Source of the DNA: Microthyrium microscopicum
Taxonomy: Eukaryota > Ascomycota > Dothideomycetes > Microthyriales > Microthyriaceae
NCBI GenBank assembly: GCA_010405405.1
Contig: MU004244.1
Span: 375,895 to 439,894, forward strand
Length of the DNA: 64,000 nucleotides
Direction of reading: 5' to 3'
Positions 2,881 through 13,793 of this stretch are shown piece by piece. The notes beneath the pieces were generated by a model. It saw nothing but the letters and a program-made list of their open reading frames with translations, was not told where the DNA came from and did not search any database. A program made the position numbers and the translations under genes. Positions within the stretch are counted from its first letter, which is position 1. Each line of letters opens with the position of its first letter.

Positions 2881-3032
2881 TGTTGTGATAAAGAATATGC
2901 CAAGGGATTAGATAATCGTAGGACCTAATTAGGGATAATATAATTCCCTAATTAGCGTGTCCTAAAAACTATATTAGGCCCTTAGACTCTTATAGTAATT
3001 AACTACGCTTTATTTCTTATATTCTTATAATA
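2881..3032 (+). repeat. 5' LTR of the Gypsy-like element
   Basis: A 152-bp repeat that aligns without gaps with 13642-13793. The differences I can see are transitions, as RIP produces. It starts TGTTGTGAT, and the target duplication ATGAG ends one base before it. Its outer part is less mutated than its inner part. Confidence 0.85.
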
Positions 3033-5650
3033 TTTAGTAGTAATAATTTAATTTAATTAGGACCTCTAGATAATAGACCTCTTATAAAAATTCCTAAATT
3101 TACTTTATTATTAATAATTACTTAGAATTAATATCTAGTAAGATATACTCTAAGAATACTATTCCTTAATTAGCTAGCCTTATTATAGCTTAATGCCTAG
3201 TAACTATATATTAAGAAATAATTCTTAAGATTTATATATAATAATATTCTTTACTACTATATATTTTAAAAATATCTTAAATTATTTTTAATTTAAACTA
3301 CTACTTTAAGAATTATTAAATATATTATAAGAATTATCTCTTCTATAATAATACTCTCTTTATTTCTACTAATTTCTACTATATTAATTATATAGCTATT
3401 AGATAAAATATAGAAACTTCTTCTTAAAAAATTCCTTAGAATAACGTTATAGGAACTTTACTATATAAATTAAAGCTAATAAGTAATAATATAGACTTTT
3501 AGCCTTAGGTTATCTTAGGAAATTAGATTAAAATTTTATTTATACTAAGGAAGTATAAAAATCTATTTTAGAATAATTTCTTAACTCTAAATTCTATTTA
3601 ACTAACTTTAGTATAGAAACTTTTAGATTTTAAGACTTTTTTTTTACCTTACTAAGATTATACTTTTTATTAAAACTATTACTTTCTTTTACTAAAATAA
3701 ATAACTAGTATAATAATATTATAGCTTAAGCTATAAAATAAGATACTTAGTAAATATAATACTAAGCTTAAATTACTAATTTAGGTTTTTAAGATAAGTA
3801 ACTTACTCTTATATTACTAAATAACCTTTCTAATATACTAAATCTTAGTCTTAATCTTATAACTTAAGTTATTAATATTTAGTAATTAAGGCTTTAAGCT
3901 TTAAATTATTCTATTAATATATATTAAGTTAATTCCTAGACTATTAATTATCCTTTTACTAAACTATAAACTCTCTTTTAGGCTTAGAACTATATTTCTA
4001 AGGAACTTAATTACGTTCTTTAAGCTTATAACTAAACTTTCTAATATAATAATAATAGAAATTAGTAGTTTATAAATAGGCCTATTCTTTTTTAGAGAGT
4101 ATTATTTTACCTTATTACTAATAGGTAAATTAAATAAAATTATAGCCTTAAACTTATAGAGAACGTTTAATATACTTAGTAGTAAGAAATAGTAAATTAT
4201 ATTACTAAATTAATCTCTTGCCTTAATATAAGTAAGTTTATCTTATATACTTAAGATTACTAAGTAAATAAAATTAAGGCTTATATTTAGACTTAGGCTT
4301 TAACCTAAGAAACTTTATAAATAGATATTACTTACTTAAACTTTATAAGAAAGCTAAGTAAGGAGTTAGATAAGACTATTAAATTACTTTTCTAAACTTT
4401 TAGTCTCTAAAAACTTATTAAGATAATAAGGAATATTCCTTAGAAATAGAAATAATATTTAACTAAGTTTAAGATACCTCTTAATAGTTTATTCTCTAAG
4501 AAACTAAGTAAGTATAATACTTAGGCTAAGAGCCTCTTTTATACTTTTAAGGCTAGTAAAGATATTCTTTTATTAAATTTTGCTCTACTTAAGTAGTAGA
4601 AAATTATTAAGGTTAAAGAATATCTTCTTATTAAGTAATGTCTTTTATAGGCTAACTTAGCTTAGTAATAGACTATAGAGAAGTTTAAGATACTTAAAAG
4701 TTTATCTTATTTCTTTACTTACTTTTAACCTATATTTAGTATTAAAAAAAATATACTTAAGATTAGTATTTAGTAGGATTATATATTATAGGTTTTATTT
4801 ACTAAGAAATTTATCTATTATTTTTATATTCTATAAACTTAAATAAATTCTATACTTACTAATTATAAAATAGGTATTTAAATCTAAGGAGGCTTTAAAG
4901 AATAAGTTATCTTTAAAGCTAAGTATAAGTATAGTACTATTCTTAACCTTATAGTTAATATTTTAGCTTTTAAATAAAAAATTATTAAATATAATATAAA
5001 CTTTTATAGAAATGCGTATAATACTTATAATGCTTATAAGCTAGAATAGCTTAATAAAATCTTTTTTAGTTTTAAAAAAAATAAAGAGCCTATCCTAAAT
5101 ACTAATTTTAAGAAATATCTTAAGAAAGTTAATAATAAAAGCTATACTAATAATAAGCTTAAGTTAAATAATAAAAATTTAGGATAGCTTAATACTATAA
5201 ATAGCTATAATTATTATCTTAAAGAATAATATAATACTTAATACTTTAAGAAATTTAACTTTAATAAAAAGTTATATTCTTCTTATAAAAAGGATTCTAA
5301 AAATAAAAAAGCTTCTATAGATAACTTTAAACTTAAGTACTAGAATTATAGTAAACTTAGCTACTATACTATAAATTATAAAAAACCTAACTAGTAATAA
5401 TAGAGTTTAAAAAACTACTATTACTAAGAAATAAATAAGAATTTTTTAGCTTAGAACTAAAATACTTTACTTATCTATATAATAACTAATAAGTTTTTCT
5501 TAACTATATAAGTAAATATAGTAATACTCTTTTATATCTATCTATTTACTTATATTATAAAAATTATTCTATTAAGACTATAGCTTTTTTAGACTTAGGA
5601 GCTAATTCTATTTATATTAGTTAAAAGATTATTAAGAAACTTAAAGCTTC

Positions 5651-5828
5651 TGTTAGAAATAGGTATAGATATTTAACTCGAACCTGTACTAAAACGGGTG
5701 CATAAAAAGCACGTTAGTGTCCACTAAGATTAGCAAAACACCTTGAATATTCCGTATAAGTAGAGTATATTCGTAAAGATTTAGACCGTTGCAGGAATTG
5801 AACCCGCGACCTGTTCCGATTCCTGACA
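5651..5828 (-). repeat. Left terminal repeat of the TRIM-like element
   Basis: A 178-bp repeat almost identical to 6445-6622. On the minus strand its first about 50 bases contain a tRNA-like T-arm with a B-box-like GGTTCAATTCC. Confidence 0.85.
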
Positions 5829-5966
5829 TTATCACCCTTCTTAAGGGCTGGCGTCCCGACAGCCCCGCAGCAGAATAACATCAAAACATTAGGCAGTTGC
5901 ACATAAACAACACACTACCGCAACTTCTACTCCTAGCCACGTACGCTTGCTTTATCAAAAATCTTG

Positions 5967-6205
5967 CCTGCTTCTACCGTAGCTAATCCTGCATCTGCAA
6001 CATTAGCTAGCCTGTTTGGGCTAGCCTTGATTCCCAAATTTAGTGATTCTCCTCACTGACTTTAGGGGACCCTCCACTCCGGAACTCAGATCGTGTTAGG
6101 TAGGGTCGCCTAAAATTAGTGATCGGAATCACTAAATTTGGGCATCAAGGCTAGCCCAAAGAGGCTAGCTAATGTTGCAGATGCAGGATTAGCTATGGTA
6201 GCAGG
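5967..6205. repeat. Long hairpin inside the TRIM-like element
   Basis: Arms of about 105 bases (roughly 5967-6073 and 6101-6205) are imperfect reverse complements around a loop of about 27 bases. Shared blocks include AGCTAATCCTGCATCTGCAA and GGGCTAGCCTTGAT. It could be a foldback or MITE-type insertion carried by the element, or a structural part of the element's RNA. I see no target duplication that would decide. Confidence 0.7.
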
Positions 6206-6444
6206 TCTTGTTCTGTGCCTCCTACGCTTTTTGGAGAAGGACTTTCAGTGCTGCTTGATCAAGGCAGGCTTGTTCTTGCCTTTACGACCAATCCAGGCTA
6301 AAGGACTTTCTTGTTCTTGCCTAAAATAAGGGCGCCCCTTCCCTGAGGGGCTGAAGCAAGCGTCATCACCTTTCAGGGTGTGTGAACGCTAATTTGGGGA
6401 CGGTAATTCCATACTGTTGGGCCCAAATGGATTAGCGGACACTA

Positions 6445-6622
6445 TGTTAGAAACAGGCACAGATATTCAACTCGAACCTGTACTAAAACGGGTGCATAAA
6501 AAGCACGTTAGTGTCCACTAAGATTAGTAAAACACCTTGAATATTCCGTATAAGTAGAGTATGTTCGTAAAGATTCAGACCGTTGCAGGAATTGAACCCG
6601 CGACCTGTTCCGATTCCTAACA
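6445..6622 (-). repeat. Right terminal repeat of the TRIM-like element
   Basis: A 178-bp partner of 5651-5828, with the perfect terminal inverted hexamer TGTTAG/CTAACA. The GCTTC target duplication follows at 6623-6627. This copy appears slightly less mutated than the left one. Confidence 0.85.
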
Positions 6623-9600
6623 GCTTCTATAATATTTATCTTAGAGAAAGAAATTACTCTTATAGATAGCTATATAGTTATAACTTCCTTTAGGATTTAC
6701 TTATTTTATTATATTAGGACTTTTTATAGCTACTTTAAGATATATATTCTAAATATTTTTAATCTTAATATTATTTTTAGACTCTTATAGTTTTAGTTAT
6801 ATAATCTATAAATTAATTAAATAATAAAGTAAATTAAGCTTATAGAGTAATACTTAGGAGGCCTTTATACTTATAAGCTTACTATAAGACGCTAAATAGA
6901 GCTTCTTTAGAATAAGAAGAGCTACTTAGAATAAATAGAGTAATTTATAGTTAGCTTTCTTTATATAATCTTTTAAGTACTTTAGAATAGAGTAAAAAGA
7001 GTAAAAAATAAAGTTAAGAACGTTCTTTAGCTAATTTAAGGAATATAAGAATAGCTTAATATTCTCTTAATAACTAATAATCTTAATATTAATAAACTTA
7101 CTCTAAAAGATAAAGGTATATAAAAACTTTTAAATAATTACTATAAGTTCTTTTATTATATCCTTTCTAAACTTTTACTATATTCTAAGTTTAATTATAA
7201 AATCTTTATAAGAGATACTTTTCTTTATAACTAGGCTTATTATTAGATATCTAGCCTATAACTAAAAAAGTAGAAAAAGTAGATTTAAGAATTACTTACT
7301 AAAGAACTTATTAAAGTCTTAAGAAGTCTTTAGAGTTTCTCTATCCTATTTATATTAAAGCTAAGAAAAAAATAGAGAATATATATTAACTATTATCTAC
7401 TTAATATAGTTATATATAAGGATACTTATCTTTTATTATAAATTAATAAGTATCTTAATACTATTAATAGAGTAAGATTCTTCTCTAAGCTTAACTTCCT
7501 ATTAGGCTATTAATAAGTCTATATAGTAAAAAAAAATATTAAGAAAATAGCTTTTAATACTAAGTTTAGGAAGTATAAGTTCTTTATTATACTTTTTAGA
7601 TTAATAAATACGCTATTATTTTTTTAGTATATAATAAATACTCTTCTCTAGCTCTTCTTATTAACTTATATAATTATTTACTTAAATAATATTATTATTT
7701 ACTTAGATACTATAGAAGAATATTATAAGTATATTACCTAGGTTTTAAAGATTCTTTAGAATAATAAGCTCTATGCTTATTTTAATAAATATATCTTTAG
7801 AATTAAGAAAATTAAATTCTATAGCTATAAAGTAAGAAATTAATAAATCTAATCCTTATATAAAAAGACTACCTTAATTAAGTCCTAGCTTATACTTAAG
7901 AATATATATAAAGTACGTTAATTCTTTAGTCTTACCTTATACTATTAGTAGTATATTAAAAATTTTACTAAGATTACTACCTCTATTTTTAATCTCCTAA
8001 AAGAGGCTAATCTAGATATTAAGAAAAAGAAGTACTACCTTATTACTTAGACTTATTAATATACTATAGCCTTTAATAAAATTAAGACTTTATTAACCTT
8101 ATTACTTATCTTAATAATATATAATTTATAAAAGCCTATAAAGCTTTAAATAAATGCTTTAAATTATATAATTAGTTATAAGCTAGTATAAAAAAATAAC
8201 TAAAGTAAATAGTACTTAGTTACTTTTAATAGCTATAAGCTAAGTAAAGCTAAACTTAATTATTTAGTATATAAGAAAAAGCTTCTTATAGTTAAGAATA
8301 TAATTAGGAAATACTAATACTACTTTCTAAGAAAAACTATTAAAGTAATTATAAATTATAATAGCTTATAATATATAAATATAATTAAGAATAATACTTA
8401 ATATATTACTTAATAAATTAAAGAGTTCTAAGAATTTAATCTTATTTTTATATATTATAAGAGTTTCTAAGTAGTAGTTCTTAATACTCTTAGTTATTAT
8501 CTAAACTTTTAAAAAGGATAAATTAATATTATCTAGAAAATAAAGCTTAAAGATAGTAATAATAATTTATCTTTTAAAGCGTAAGCTACTTTATTAGAAT
8601 CCTTATAAGAGTAAAAAGAATAAGAAGCTCTTTATATATAGAGCTTATAAAAAGTATTAGAAAAGAAAAATTATATTATCTCTACTAGTATATAAAAAAG
8701 ACTCTAAAAAAGTATTCTTAATTATTTTTAGATTAATCCTAATAAAGATATTAGAAGAAAATATAAGTATTTATTCTTAGAGAAAGATTCTATTAAAGCT
8801 AAGATACTTACTAGTTTACTCTATATTTATTTCTTTTATTACTAAGACCTTATTAAGAAAGTATATAATTAATATAGGTATTTATTATATATAGGCTTTA
8901 CTAATATCTTTAAACTAAAGAGTTAATAGCTAAGAATAGAGAATAACTTTTAAAAATTTATTAAGTTCTATCCTATATATTAAGTTTAATAAATAGATTA
9001 AAGTAGGCCTAAATATAGGTTTTACTATTAAGTATAAAACTTATAGCTATTTAAGGCTTAGAAAATTAACTTAATTAGTAAACTTCTATAAAGTCTTCTT
9101 AAGAACTAGTATATTATTTATATAATTAACTATATTATAAAATAGCTTATTATAGAAGTAGTATTAAATATTATTACTTCTATAGTTATAGAATTTATTT
9201 ATAGAAAAATTATCTTAAAATATAGTTCTTCTTAATTATTAATCTTAAATAATAGACTTTAGTTTATTTTAGACGTAATTTTATTTTTATTATAATAGAT
9301 AAAGACTAAGTACTACTTAATAGCCTTATATAACCCTTAGTCTAATAAAAAGATTAAGAAATTTAATAGCCTACTAGGTATATTCTTAACTAAGTTTCTA
9401 AAAGGAAAACTTATAGCTAGCTAAGATCTATATCTAGATTAAGTAGTTTATACTATTAGGATATAAGCTTATACTATATTAGAAATATTTCTCTTCTTCT
9501 TTATTTATAAAAAAAATCCTAAAGATTTTAAAATAAGCTAGGTAAAGGAAAATAAATAAGCTAAATTAACTAGTACTATACTTCTTATCTATATAATTAT

Positions 9601-12600
9601 TAAAGATTACCTAAAGAAGGTTAGAATTATTAAGTAAGTTTATTATAACGCTTTATTAAAATAAGCTATAGCCTTAAACCTTATTAATAGTAATATAATT
9701 TTAAAAGAGGACTCTATTATTAAGTTCTCTATAAGTTTTTATATACTTCTTAAAAATTTAAATAAAACTAAATTCTAGGTAGTATAGTTTAGCTCTTATA
9801 AAGTCTTAAAAGCTTACTTTTTAAGAATATACGCTTTTAAGATACTTAATAAAAGAATACTTAGAAACTTTATCTATAGAAATTACCTTATATAAGTATA
9901 TATATAAAAAGAAAATAAATATTATTACTAGAACTAGCTATATTTTAAATATAAGTAACTAAGTAAGAATAACTTTAAAAACGTTCTAAATAAAGAATAT
10001 AAAAGTAAAATAGATATATCTACTATAACTAAGAAAGACTAGCTTAATAGATTAAGAAACCTTTTAGTAGAGTTAATTAATATTAAGAAGTTTAGTATTA
10101 AGAGATATTACTTAAGTTTACTTACTATCTCTTTTAACTTTATAAGAAAAGTTTAAGAAGCTAAAATAGGTATTTATAAATAAAAAAAAAAAAATTCTAT
10201 AATAACTATTTATAATCTAAGTAGTAACTTAGAAACTTCTATAATATTAGAATATATTTCTTTTAACTTAATTTTAGCTTTAGTATAAAGTAATTTAAAA
10301 TAGATAGAGTAAATTATATAGAAGGTAGAATATTTTATAGTACTATAAGATTTAGTAAAAGAGAAAAATAATAATATTTCTATTCTTCTAAATTAAAACT
10401 TAGTAAAAAAGGAAATTCTTCTAGCTATAGTAAATTAAGAATTAATCTTTATATTATTAGAATAATAAGAGTAAAGAAATAAATTATTAAAGCTAAAGAG
10501 CTATAATAAGATTACTACCCTAATTGCCTATATATCTATACTAGAAGTAATAAATCTATATAAATAGGTATCTAATCTTAAAGAAGATTATTAAAATATT
10601 AATCCTTTATTACTAAATACTATAGAAGTAAAGGTTTTTTCTATAGATTATCCTAAACCTAGTCTACTATAAGAGATAAATATAACTAAAGGATTCTTAT
10701 AGAATACTAATATATTTAGGCTAATTATAACGCTTAGTAATTCTATATACTTTAGTACTAGCTTATAATATTTAGAATTAAGATAAAAATAGTAGAAGAC
10801 TACTTCTAAATAAGAAATTATTCTATATATAGATATAGGTAAGGTACTTATAAGAAAAAAAAGAAAAATTAATCTTTTATTATTTCTTTTATAACCTTTC
10901 TTAATTATATTTATTTAAGGAAACTATTTATAAGAAATTACTTTTATTTATTATTAATTTAAGTAAACTATTATAAGTAATAATAACTAAAATTAAACCT
11001 TTAAATCTCCTTAGTAATCTCTAAGACTATTACTAAGGTTATTTAAATATAATAAGCTATCTTTAGATCTCTCTAGTAATTCCTAAGACTATTACTAAAA
11101 GCCTTTTTATAAAATATTTAATAGTAAGAAATAGGAAACCTAAATAACCTAAATTCCTAAGCTAACTTACTACTTTCTAATTTTAAAGTAATATAAGCTT
11201 AATACTACCTTTCTCTATTTCTTAGAAAATAACTAACTCTAAGAGTCTAGTCTTATTTCTTTCTTTATATAAGTAAGCTAATATACTTCTTCTCTATTAA
11301 AACTAAATATAGTTAGTAAAGCTTTTAGATAATTAGAAATAGTATAAATAATAGGCTACTAGTAGAGCTATAAATAGAAGTAATAAGTAGTTTAGTAATT
11401 ACCTATATTAATTATATAGTACCTATGCTTATCTTCTTTATTATAAATAAATAATTTTATTTACTATTTAGAGTATAATTTATATAAGCTCTATTAAATA
11501 TAAAATTACTCTTTATATCCTAAAAGACTATATAATTATACTAAGTAATAACTTCTTTATCTAAGAGCTTAAGTATATAGTAGTATTTATATTTATTATA
11601 ATATTAATTAGGTTAGTAACTTTAAATATAAGCTATAGCTACTTATAACTTATTACTACTAAATAATAAGTTAGTTATTACTATAGTAGCTAGCTTAGTC
11701 TAAGTAAGATTATACTTAATATAATATTTAAGTAATACTAAGATCTTTTAAAAGATTTTAATTCTCTAATTTTAAAGATTCTATAAGACCTAGATAAGCT
11801 TATTCTAAGTCTTTTTCTTATATATTTATAGCTAGTAGTTTAAATAGATTAATTAACTACTTATTATAGTATAAGCTATATTATTAAGTAAATACTTATA
11901 AGTTTACTTATTAAGCTTCTTTAAGAAAGCTAAATAATAACTTAAATTAAGCTCTACTTTAATTTAAGGCTTAGGTAAGGTTTTATATATACTACTTTAT
12001 TTTTTTATAAGCTAACATAATAGCATCTTTATCTTTTCCTTACTTAAAAACTTAACGTACTTTAGTTTATTCTTAAAAATATTTAAGAAGCTAGTTTTAT
12101 TAACTATATACTTATATACTTATAGAATATTATAAGTTTATTCTAGCTTAAGTATTATATAATAGTAGTAGCTTTAGCTATACTCTTAGTTAATAATCTA
12201 GTATAAGATTATTTTAAAATATACTAAGCTATTTTAAATACGCTAGAATATATCTTCTATTACTTAAATCTAAAAATATATTATATTTTACTTTATACGT
12301 ACTTATATAGAGTTAAGTAATATAGTATTTAAGAAGTTATAATTTAGACTAAAGGTATTAGTAATATAAGTACTAAATATTATAAATAGCTTAATCTTAT
12401 TTTAATCTAGAAAACTTATTTCTTAGAGCTATTAAAGCATTACTTACGTTAGAGTATTCTTCTTAATAGAACCTATTTTTCGTTTAAGTATTTCTTAAGT
12501 AGCTTATTTATAAGCTAACTTCTACTAGTAAAAGAACTTATTCTTTAAGACTAGAAAATATTATTTAAACGTAAGTAATTATTTATAAGATTATCTTATC

Positions 12601-13641
12601 TTAGAATTAATATTATAGTAGCTTATAGAAGCTTACTAGTAAGTCTTCTTAGGAAAAGGATTTAAATAGCTAATACTTTATTAATAACTAAATTTAGCTA
12701 AAGAAGGTAAAAAGTAGTTATTATTATTCTCTATACTTAAGAATTTTAATATACTACTTTATTAGCTATAAGCTTTAGCTAGAGAAAATAAATATATAAG
12801 TATATTTATAAATAATTATAAATATTCCTTAGAATAAAGTTAAGTAACTAGACTTAAAGATTAAGTAGTAGAACTTAAAGCCTACTATAAAGATTTAGCT
12901 TAATTATATTAAGCCTAAGAAACCTAAGAGTAAGTACTACGCTTTCTAAATAGCTTTAAAGATAATATAATTAATTTAGTATAAAAAGCTATTTTAAAAA
13001 GCTTTTATAATTAAGAGCTTAAGAAGAATTAAGAATTAAAGAAGGAAAATATATAAAGCTACTTATACTTAATAATATTAAAAGTATAAGAGGAAATTTA
13101 CTTCTACTAGCTTAAAGTATTATAAAAGTATAATAAAGAAGAAGAAGAGAAAATAATAGATTATAAAGCTTTATAGATATAAGATTAAGTCCTTATCTTA
13201 TATTTACTTAAACTAGTAATTATTACTTAGTTCTTTATTACTACCTATATATTACTTTTTATAAACTTTATTCTTTAAAACTTTAAAGTATAGGTTATAT
13301 ATATTTTTTACTAGATTAAGTAGCCTTAGTATATTTATATAAACTTCTTATAATTTCTTAATTTATTACTACTAATAGCCTCTATATAAATAAACCTTTT
13401 TAAAAGGATTAGGAACTATAAACGCCTAAGTACTATTTATAATAATTTAACCTAAATTTTAAGAAAAATCTTAGAGAGATAATTCTTTAGAGATTACCTT
13501 ATAATATAGCTAAGGTAATAGCCTTAGACCTTAGATAAGTTCCTTATTAGTTATTATAATGTTCTTTTTATTTTACTTATTTATTAAAGCTATAACTATA
13601 GGATTTATAATCTTAAAAGAGTTTATGCTAGTAAGAAAGAA

Positions 13642-13793
13642 TATTATAATAAAAAATATACTAAGGAATTAAATAATTATAGGACCTAATTAAGGATAAT
13701 ATAATCTCCTAATTAGCATATCCTAAAAACTATATTAGGCCCTTAGACTCTCGTAGTAATCAACCACGCTTTATTTCTCATATTCTTGCAACA
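13642..13793 (+). repeat. 3' LTR of the Gypsy-like element
   Basis: A 152-bp partner of 2881-3032. It ends in CAACA and is followed at once by the second ATGAG target duplication (13794-13798). Here too the outer end is the better preserved, and composition returns to normal directly after it. Confidence 0.85.

Follow-up and report, generated by a model that had tools for sequence, protein, structure and literature searches.

A TRIM-like LTR retrotransposon with a candidate self-priming site, inserted into a RIP-mutated repeat of Microthyrium microscopicum

Introduction

Small non-autonomous retrotransposons with long terminal repeats (LTRs) are usually described with a primer site for a transfer RNA (tRNA) that matches the site of their helper. 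Terminal-repeat retrotransposons in miniature (TRIMs) are delimited by a size below 1000 bp and repeats of 100-250 bp (PMC6934838; this and all other papers are cited from the portions available to us). The present analysis concerns an element of this kind at positions 5651 to 6622 of a 64,000-nucleotide stretch of the ascomycete Microthyrium microscopicum (assembly GCA_010405405.1, contig MU004244.1, positions 375,895 to 439,894), hereafter called the window. At a rough probability of 0.7, it is read here as a TRIM-like, non-autonomous LTR retrotransposon on the minus strand, about 748 bp long plus a 222-bp miniature inverted-repeat transposable element (MITE) and its TA, which would be self-primed and mobilised in trans. 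Its TRIM-like nature is well supported by size, repeats, a 5-bp target duplication, an empty site in all 11 host copies fetched and the lack of coding capacity.

The first-pass annotation had called TRIM-type elements little described in fungi. Fungal TRIMs have been published before: nine have been annotated in Cochliobolus heterostrophus (PMC4112212), others lie at effector-like genes in Venturia (PMC4646964), and Helenus TRIMs, carrying boxes A and B in the LTR, are reported from rusts and three Agaricomycetes (PMC10886601). For bivalve TRIMs, no clear tRNA site is given, and the authors mention self-priming of the Tf1 type and propose no clear mechanism in the parts available (PMC6934838). 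Tj1 is an example of self-priming in fission yeast (PMC4600332); for Tf1-group elements a primer duplex, a U5 stem and a third duplex have been described (PMC10085805). According to the text available, a Tcn1-like element showed neither type of priming (PMC2864245). In the literature searched, with most subscription papers outside its reach, no TRIM was found for which a self-primer had been either shown or predicted.

Structure of the element and its insertion site

The element is delimited by the following features.

6445 to 6622, minus strand: 5' LTR (178 bp) of the element as read on the minus strand, by direct-repeat comparison
5651 to 5828, minus strand: 3' LTR (178 bp) of the element as read on the minus strand, by direct-repeat comparison
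5646 to 5650, no strand: left target-site duplication GCTTC; a single GCTTC or a variant of it by 1-2 bases stands at uninterrupted host copies
6623 to 6627, no strand: right target-site duplication GCTTC, by the same host-copy comparison
2888 to 13787, no strand: RIP-mutated, AT-rich host repeat, apparently bounded by 139-bp direct repeats

Both LTRs are 96% identical, differing at 8 positions, and together with the interior they span 972 bp. Hence, the element lies within the TRIM size limits with or without the MITE, and its longest reading frame (68 aa from stop to stop, 55 aa from an ATG) leaves it without coding capacity. The outer ends read TGTTAG and CTAACA; since the inner end of the left LTR reads CTGACA, the outer CTAACA is probably a product of repeat-induced point mutation (RIP). 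The total length, the repeat length, the outer terminal letters, the GCTTC duplication and the non-coding nature agree with the first-pass annotation. As a side observation, the ends of each LTR are inversely complementary, giving an end-to-end RNA fold (z -3.26; 2 of 200 shuffles as stable).

The GC content of the element is 0.449 versus 0.184 and 0.190 in its flanks. When the right flank (1973 bp) was searched against the genome, at least 44 matches were obtained, at least 17 of them full-length including the query itself, and the 16 others were 85-91% identical; all counts for this query are lower bounds. Eleven of these 16 copies were fetched for comparison at the insertion point. A 400-bp query consisting of both flanks joined by one GCTTC aligned without gaps over 399-400 bases in every one of them (88-93% identity). 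Because the fetched copies run gap-free across the site, integration was precise and accompanied by a 5-bp duplication of the integrase type. The element is thus, as previously claimed, a true insertion, and none of the host copies examined is interrupted at this site.

The same annotation had named the host a Gypsy element, an identity that stays unconfirmed: in the single protein comparison made, tblastn with the gag and pol frames of three Gypsy-type loci of this genome (L046-L048, see below), no match was obtained at E 0.001. Stop-free pieces of the host repeat are few (10 of at least 45 aa), and these gag and pol frames were the only proteins compared. Directly ahead of the insertion point, a protease-like motif was noted by eye only. 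The 139-bp direct repeats that seem to bound the AT-rich host (2888-3026 and 13649-13787, 88% alike) are perhaps its own LTRs.

RIP history and timing of the insertion

The relative timing of insertion and mutation can be followed by the CpA/TpG index, which is 0.03 and 0.02 in the two host flanks, meaning that nearly all such sites have been lost there. In contrast, three parts of the element interior give 1.24, 1.56 and 1.39, the LTRs are intermediate (0.64 and 0.71), and the gene-bearing rest of the window has a value of 1.28. The proposed arrival after the main wave of RIP is therefore supported. "Almost unmutated", as the element had been described, is fair as a description, yet RIP did act on it: all 8 differences between the LTRs are transitions of the RIP type (CpA/TpA), at sites that make up 52 of the 178 LTR positions, an outcome with a chance of about 5e-5 if transitions are assumed to spread evenly. 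Consequently, the element was hit by RIP, lightly, after its insertion, and LTR divergence is unusable as a clock, so that dating by this means was rejected.

If TpA is taken as the mutated state, the left LTR has received six changes and the right LTR two. Five changes are no more than 24 nt away from an outer edge of the element (positions 10, 14, 16 and 24 of the left LTR, 175 of the right), a clustering such as leakage of RIP from the flanks would give. These data support a landing after most of the RIP of the host, while the process was still going on. A single-copy element nested in a RIP-mutated layer thus orders the events as old repeat, RIP, TRIM insertion and residual RIP.

Orientation and candidate self-priming

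On the minus strand, which is most likely the sense in which the element is read, the features below can be placed.

6432 to 6444, minus strand: candidate binding site TAGTGTCCGCTAA for a self-primer, directly adjoining the 5' LTR, from its complementarity to an LTR segment
6509 to 6521, minus strand: candidate self-primer TTAGTGGACACTA, LTR positions 102-114, at the inferred RNA start, from complementarity and fold; second copy at 5715-5727 in the 3' LTR
6547 to 6552, minus strand: TATA motif (TATACG), LTR position 71, 31 nt before the self-primer
6447 to 6486, minus strand: predicted U5 stem adjoining the binding site, from the minimum-energy structure
6382 to 6442, minus strand: alternative hairpin directly after the 5' LTR, from folding (z -3.38)
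5829 to 5842, minus strand: candidate polypurine tract AAGAAGGGTGATAA, abutting the 3' LTR; 12 of 14 purines, weak

The 13 nucleotides directly after the 5' LTR pair with LTR positions 102-114 over 13 bp, with one G.U pair and zero offset, as a site of the Tf1 type would. When the rules were loose, 5 of 5000 shuffled LTRs matched such a duplex. With strict rules (zero offset and no more than one G.U) 2 of 20,000 shuffles did so, and none of 49,900 window positions used as mock sites matched it. Folding of the 147-nt RNA from the inferred start gave the self-primer duplex plus the U5 stem as best structure (z -3.68; 1 of 200 shuffles as stable). In the opposite, plus-strand orientation, which was rejected, no self-pairing of at least 8 bp occurs within 5 nt of the LTR end, and the tRNA match is no better than in shuffles.

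No TGG is present in the 15 nt next to the LTR ends, which argues against priming by the 3' end of a tRNA. Likewise, no tRNA-complementary primer site by the 5' LTR was found in either orientation with the 20 tRNAs tested: the best complementarity amounts to 7 nt on the minus and 6 nt on the plus strand, lengths that 169 and 199 of 200 shuffles, respectively, also attain. The pairing is therefore regarded as a probable self-primer of the Tf1 type rather than a tRNA site. Of "every structural mark" that had been attributed to the element, size, repeats, 5-bp duplication, empty site and lack of coding stand, while no tRNA-type primer site was found with the tRNAs tested, the polypurine tract is modest and one copy only was found in this genome.

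Several observations weigh against self-priming or the wider interpretation built on it. The pair of 13-mers was first spotted by eye and both orientations were tried; both 13-mers are near-palindromic, and the inference rests on a single element, with no relatives in which compensatory changes could be seen. Under the strict rule, 12 bp are also reached by one further position of the interior, at the edge of the MITE. Among the three other LTR pairs compared under the loose rule, one reaches 11 bp (L049, in reverse orientation); L046 shows 9 bp and L050 none of at least 8 bp. The region of the binding site also forms a hairpin of its own, starting 2 nt after the 5' LTR (z -3.38, 1 of 200), and of the three Tf1 duplexes the third has only a weak counterpart in this element (9 bp including four G.U pairs). 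The purine richness of AAGAAGGGTGATAA is matched by 11 of 603 interior windows. The 20 tRNAs tested were drawn from 32 listed, a list that itself comes from 63 scored of 1477 candidates, so that a half-tRNA primer may lie outside this set. Finally, integrase-core sequences gave five matches in the genome; none of the five regions, all of which were fetched, holds a helper sharing sequence with the element, the best match being 27 nt at E 0.041 (L049), and the autonomous LTR partner that had been anticipated was thus not found among them.

Nested MITE and copy number

The interior contains a second, separate insertion that was absent from the first-pass annotation.

5977 to 6198, no strand: nested fold-back MITE, 222 bp, with TA on both sides (5975-5976 and 6199-6200)

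Copies of this MITE stand at five other places in the genome (C2, C5, C19, C9 and C7; labelled L002, L003, L004, L008 and L009) with 85-97% identity, the closest ones (C2, C5) being 96-97% identical to the copy in the window. In the alignment of all six, TA is present on both sides in five and only on the left side in L009. As the MITE and its TA are a nested insertion, the TRIM proper measures about 748 bp; the MITE may have arrived either before or after the TRIM insertion. Matches to plant microRNAs in Rfam (best E 3.4e-5; 37.4 bits, where the gathering score is 85) were dismissed as the long hairpin of the MITE.

Searches of the 36.9-Mb genome with the LTR up to E 10 returned two matches, namely the two LTRs of the element. 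Left of the MITE, the interior matched itself and, in addition, the other LTR; right of the MITE it matched nothing but itself. The exact 13-mer TTAGYGGACACTA occurs three times genome-wide, always within this element. A RIP-degenerate 35-mer, allowing up to 3 mismatches, found the two LTRs only. A RIP-degenerate junction pattern, allowing up to 1 mismatch, found itself and five other places, four of which are one identical sequence; the 22-mer common to L025, L026, L027 and L028, one mismatch from this pattern, probably belongs to another RIP-mutated repeat family. Neither viral contigs (one 19-mer query) nor prokaryote genomes (one 33-mer query) gave relatives, and none were expected there. 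With one copy found in this genome, RIP-degenerate patterns included, the idea of a mobile family is left unsupported, and the element is best read as a lone survivor here.

This solitary state also suits the alternative that survives best, in which the element arose by internal deletion from a single autonomous LTR retrotransposon and belongs to no TRIM family: a single copy by DNA search, exact pattern and two RIP-degenerate patterns is what it would leave. However, no frame longer than 68 aa is left, no similarity to the five fetched LTR/integrase regions and no parent LTR in the genome were detected, and a full retrotransposition cycle would still be required, so that this origin appears unlikely, though it deserves more weight than the alternatives discussed next.

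Candidate helpers and a hairpin-based alternative

L046 (C6, 303-7889), one of the five fetched regions, is a Gypsy-like element whose two 162-bp LTRs are identical; it is flanked by an AGACT duplication, its ends read TGTT..AACA, and it is apparently young, in a RIP-active genome. Its RNA may form a 9-bp self-primer duplex, which is not significant (z -1.50, 14 of 200), and all it has in common with the TRIM are end letters of the TGTT..AACA kind and a 5-bp duplication; it is a plausible type of helper only. L047 and L048 carry long open pol frames of the Gypsy type (1325 and 1247 aa). In the 10 kb fetched for each, neither shows an LTR pair: L047, which ends in AT-rich DNA, has no direct repeat of at least 70 nt, and L048 only tandem ones.

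The hairpin behind the 5' LTR admits a different, quite improbable reading, namely that of a TRIM-like element which is mobilised by Copia elements and in which a post-LTR hairpin replaces the primer-binding site, as has been proposed for fungal GalEa Copia. The stability of this hairpin fits, as do the LTRs of GalEa (138-311 bp, TGT..CA, 5-bp duplications; PMC5445492), and 13 matches to the Copia reverse transcriptase (RVT_2) testify to the past presence of Copia elements in the genome. In contrast, the GalEa motif CTGATCAGT or CTAATTAGT, which in GalEa pairs with a second 9-mer, is absent right after the LTR, where the junction reads TAGTGTCCG and a different hairpin is formed. Moreover, the GalEa site has no complement in the LTR according to its authors, in the text available (PMC5445492), versus 13 bp here; the longer RNA prefers the self-primer duplex in the fold, and all 13 Copia matches contain internal stops.

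tRNA-like motif in the LTRs

Each LTR contains one tRNA-like motif.

6585 to 6601, minus strand: motif resembling a tRNA T-arm, GCGGG-TTCAATT-CCTGC, containing a B box; repeated at 5791-5807

The perfect-loop copy in each LTR compares with 0.0036 expected per LTR (one such pattern on both strands of window positions 14001-64000). Its B box scores 9 of 10, 13 nt of the motif are identical to a tRNA of this genome, and a repeated tRNA-like locus can be aligned to LTR positions 1-35 with 78% identity (E 0.006 in a comparison with 20 short sequences). Sequences close to the T-arm stretch occur at two other places in the genome (2 and 3 mismatches), and ARAGORN calls no tRNA at either. A supposed Leu-like tRNA hidden across the junction of left LTR and interior was rejected on the results of ARAGORN and Rfam.

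In view of this motif and of the 5-bp duplications of fungal Helenus (PMC10886601), the element could be a TRIM of the Helenus kind, with a tRNA-gene-derived LTR promoter for RNA polymerase III, a tRNA-half primer and Copia mobilisation, but this is very improbable, as no A box of Helenus form exists in the LTR (the best in the element scores 7 of 9 and lies mostly outside the LTR), the B box stands only 25 nt from the LTR start with 24 nt of LTR before it, ARAGORN finds no tRNA in window, LTR or junction, Rfam up to E 10 gives no tRNA-family match (only a tmRNA match at E 0.33, below the gathering score), and none of the 20 tRNAs tested offers a primer match. Since box A is missing from the LTR, the element was not filed as Helenus.

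Separately, L061, L062, L063, L069 and L070 (C1, C2, C11, C5 and C3) are near-identical tRNA-like genes with a 24-25-nt intron. Three were called Glu-CTC by ARAGORN, while two variants, called Cys and Lys, look RIP-mutated; together these loci are possibly a tRNA-derived repeat family.

Proposed mode of replication

For the self-primed TRIM, the following cycle may be envisaged. Transcription would start at about LTR position 102, below the TATA motif, and the first 13 nt of the RNA would fold back on the 13-nt site just after the 5' LTR. Once cut, this folded-back 5' segment could prime minus-strand DNA, as in Tf1, and the purine-rich stretch at 5829-5842 could prime the plus strand. Reverse transcriptase and integrase would be supplied in trans by an autonomous, probably self-priming Gypsy element. 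Short length and low copy number may have allowed escape from most of the RIP that erased the neighbours.

More tentatively, the element may represent a TRIM with its own primer in a fuller sense: an RNA of about 750 nt whose 5' end folds on its own site would need no tRNA and might be usable by the enzymes of many self-priming Gypsy elements, with an LTR keeping the motif of a tRNA 3' half and a single short copy persisting in a RIP-active genome. If true, a self-primed TRIM would be freed from the match to one helper and open to many, and self-priming could account for those TRIMs in which a primer site was not found.

Comparison with known systems

Compared with GalEa Copia of fungi (PMC5445492), the LTR size range, the 5-bp duplication and a hairpin just after the LTR are shared, whereas the present element is gene-less, has a 13-bp LTR complement and lacks the conserved motif of the GalEa Conserved Hairpin Site. 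With Helenus (PMC10886601) it has in common a tRNA T-arm/B box per LTR, a 5-bp duplication and a similar size; it differs in having neither an A box nor a tRNA primer match, and fungal Helenus comes from rusts and a few Agaricomycetes in the text available, while the host here is an ascomycete, as RIP of the CpA type would also suggest. To the Tf1/sushi group of Gypsy chromoviruses (Tf1, Tj1) it is linked by a site abutting the 5' LTR that pairs with the would-be 5' end of the RNA and by the adjoining U5 stem. Unlike these, it is gene-less and its third duplex is weak, and in the literature searched, as far as its text was available, self-priming is described only for autonomous elements of the Tf1 group.

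With TRIMs it shares a length below 1000 bp, LTRs in the range of 100-250 bp, the absence of coding capacity, a short target duplication and a purine-rich stretch before the 3' LTR. In contrast to these, the element shows no tRNA-complementary primer site, was found in one copy and carries a nested MITE. Thus, while a tRNA-type primer site and several copies are the TRIM features not seen here, its insertion is certain and its self-primer probable, and the element works like a TRIM.

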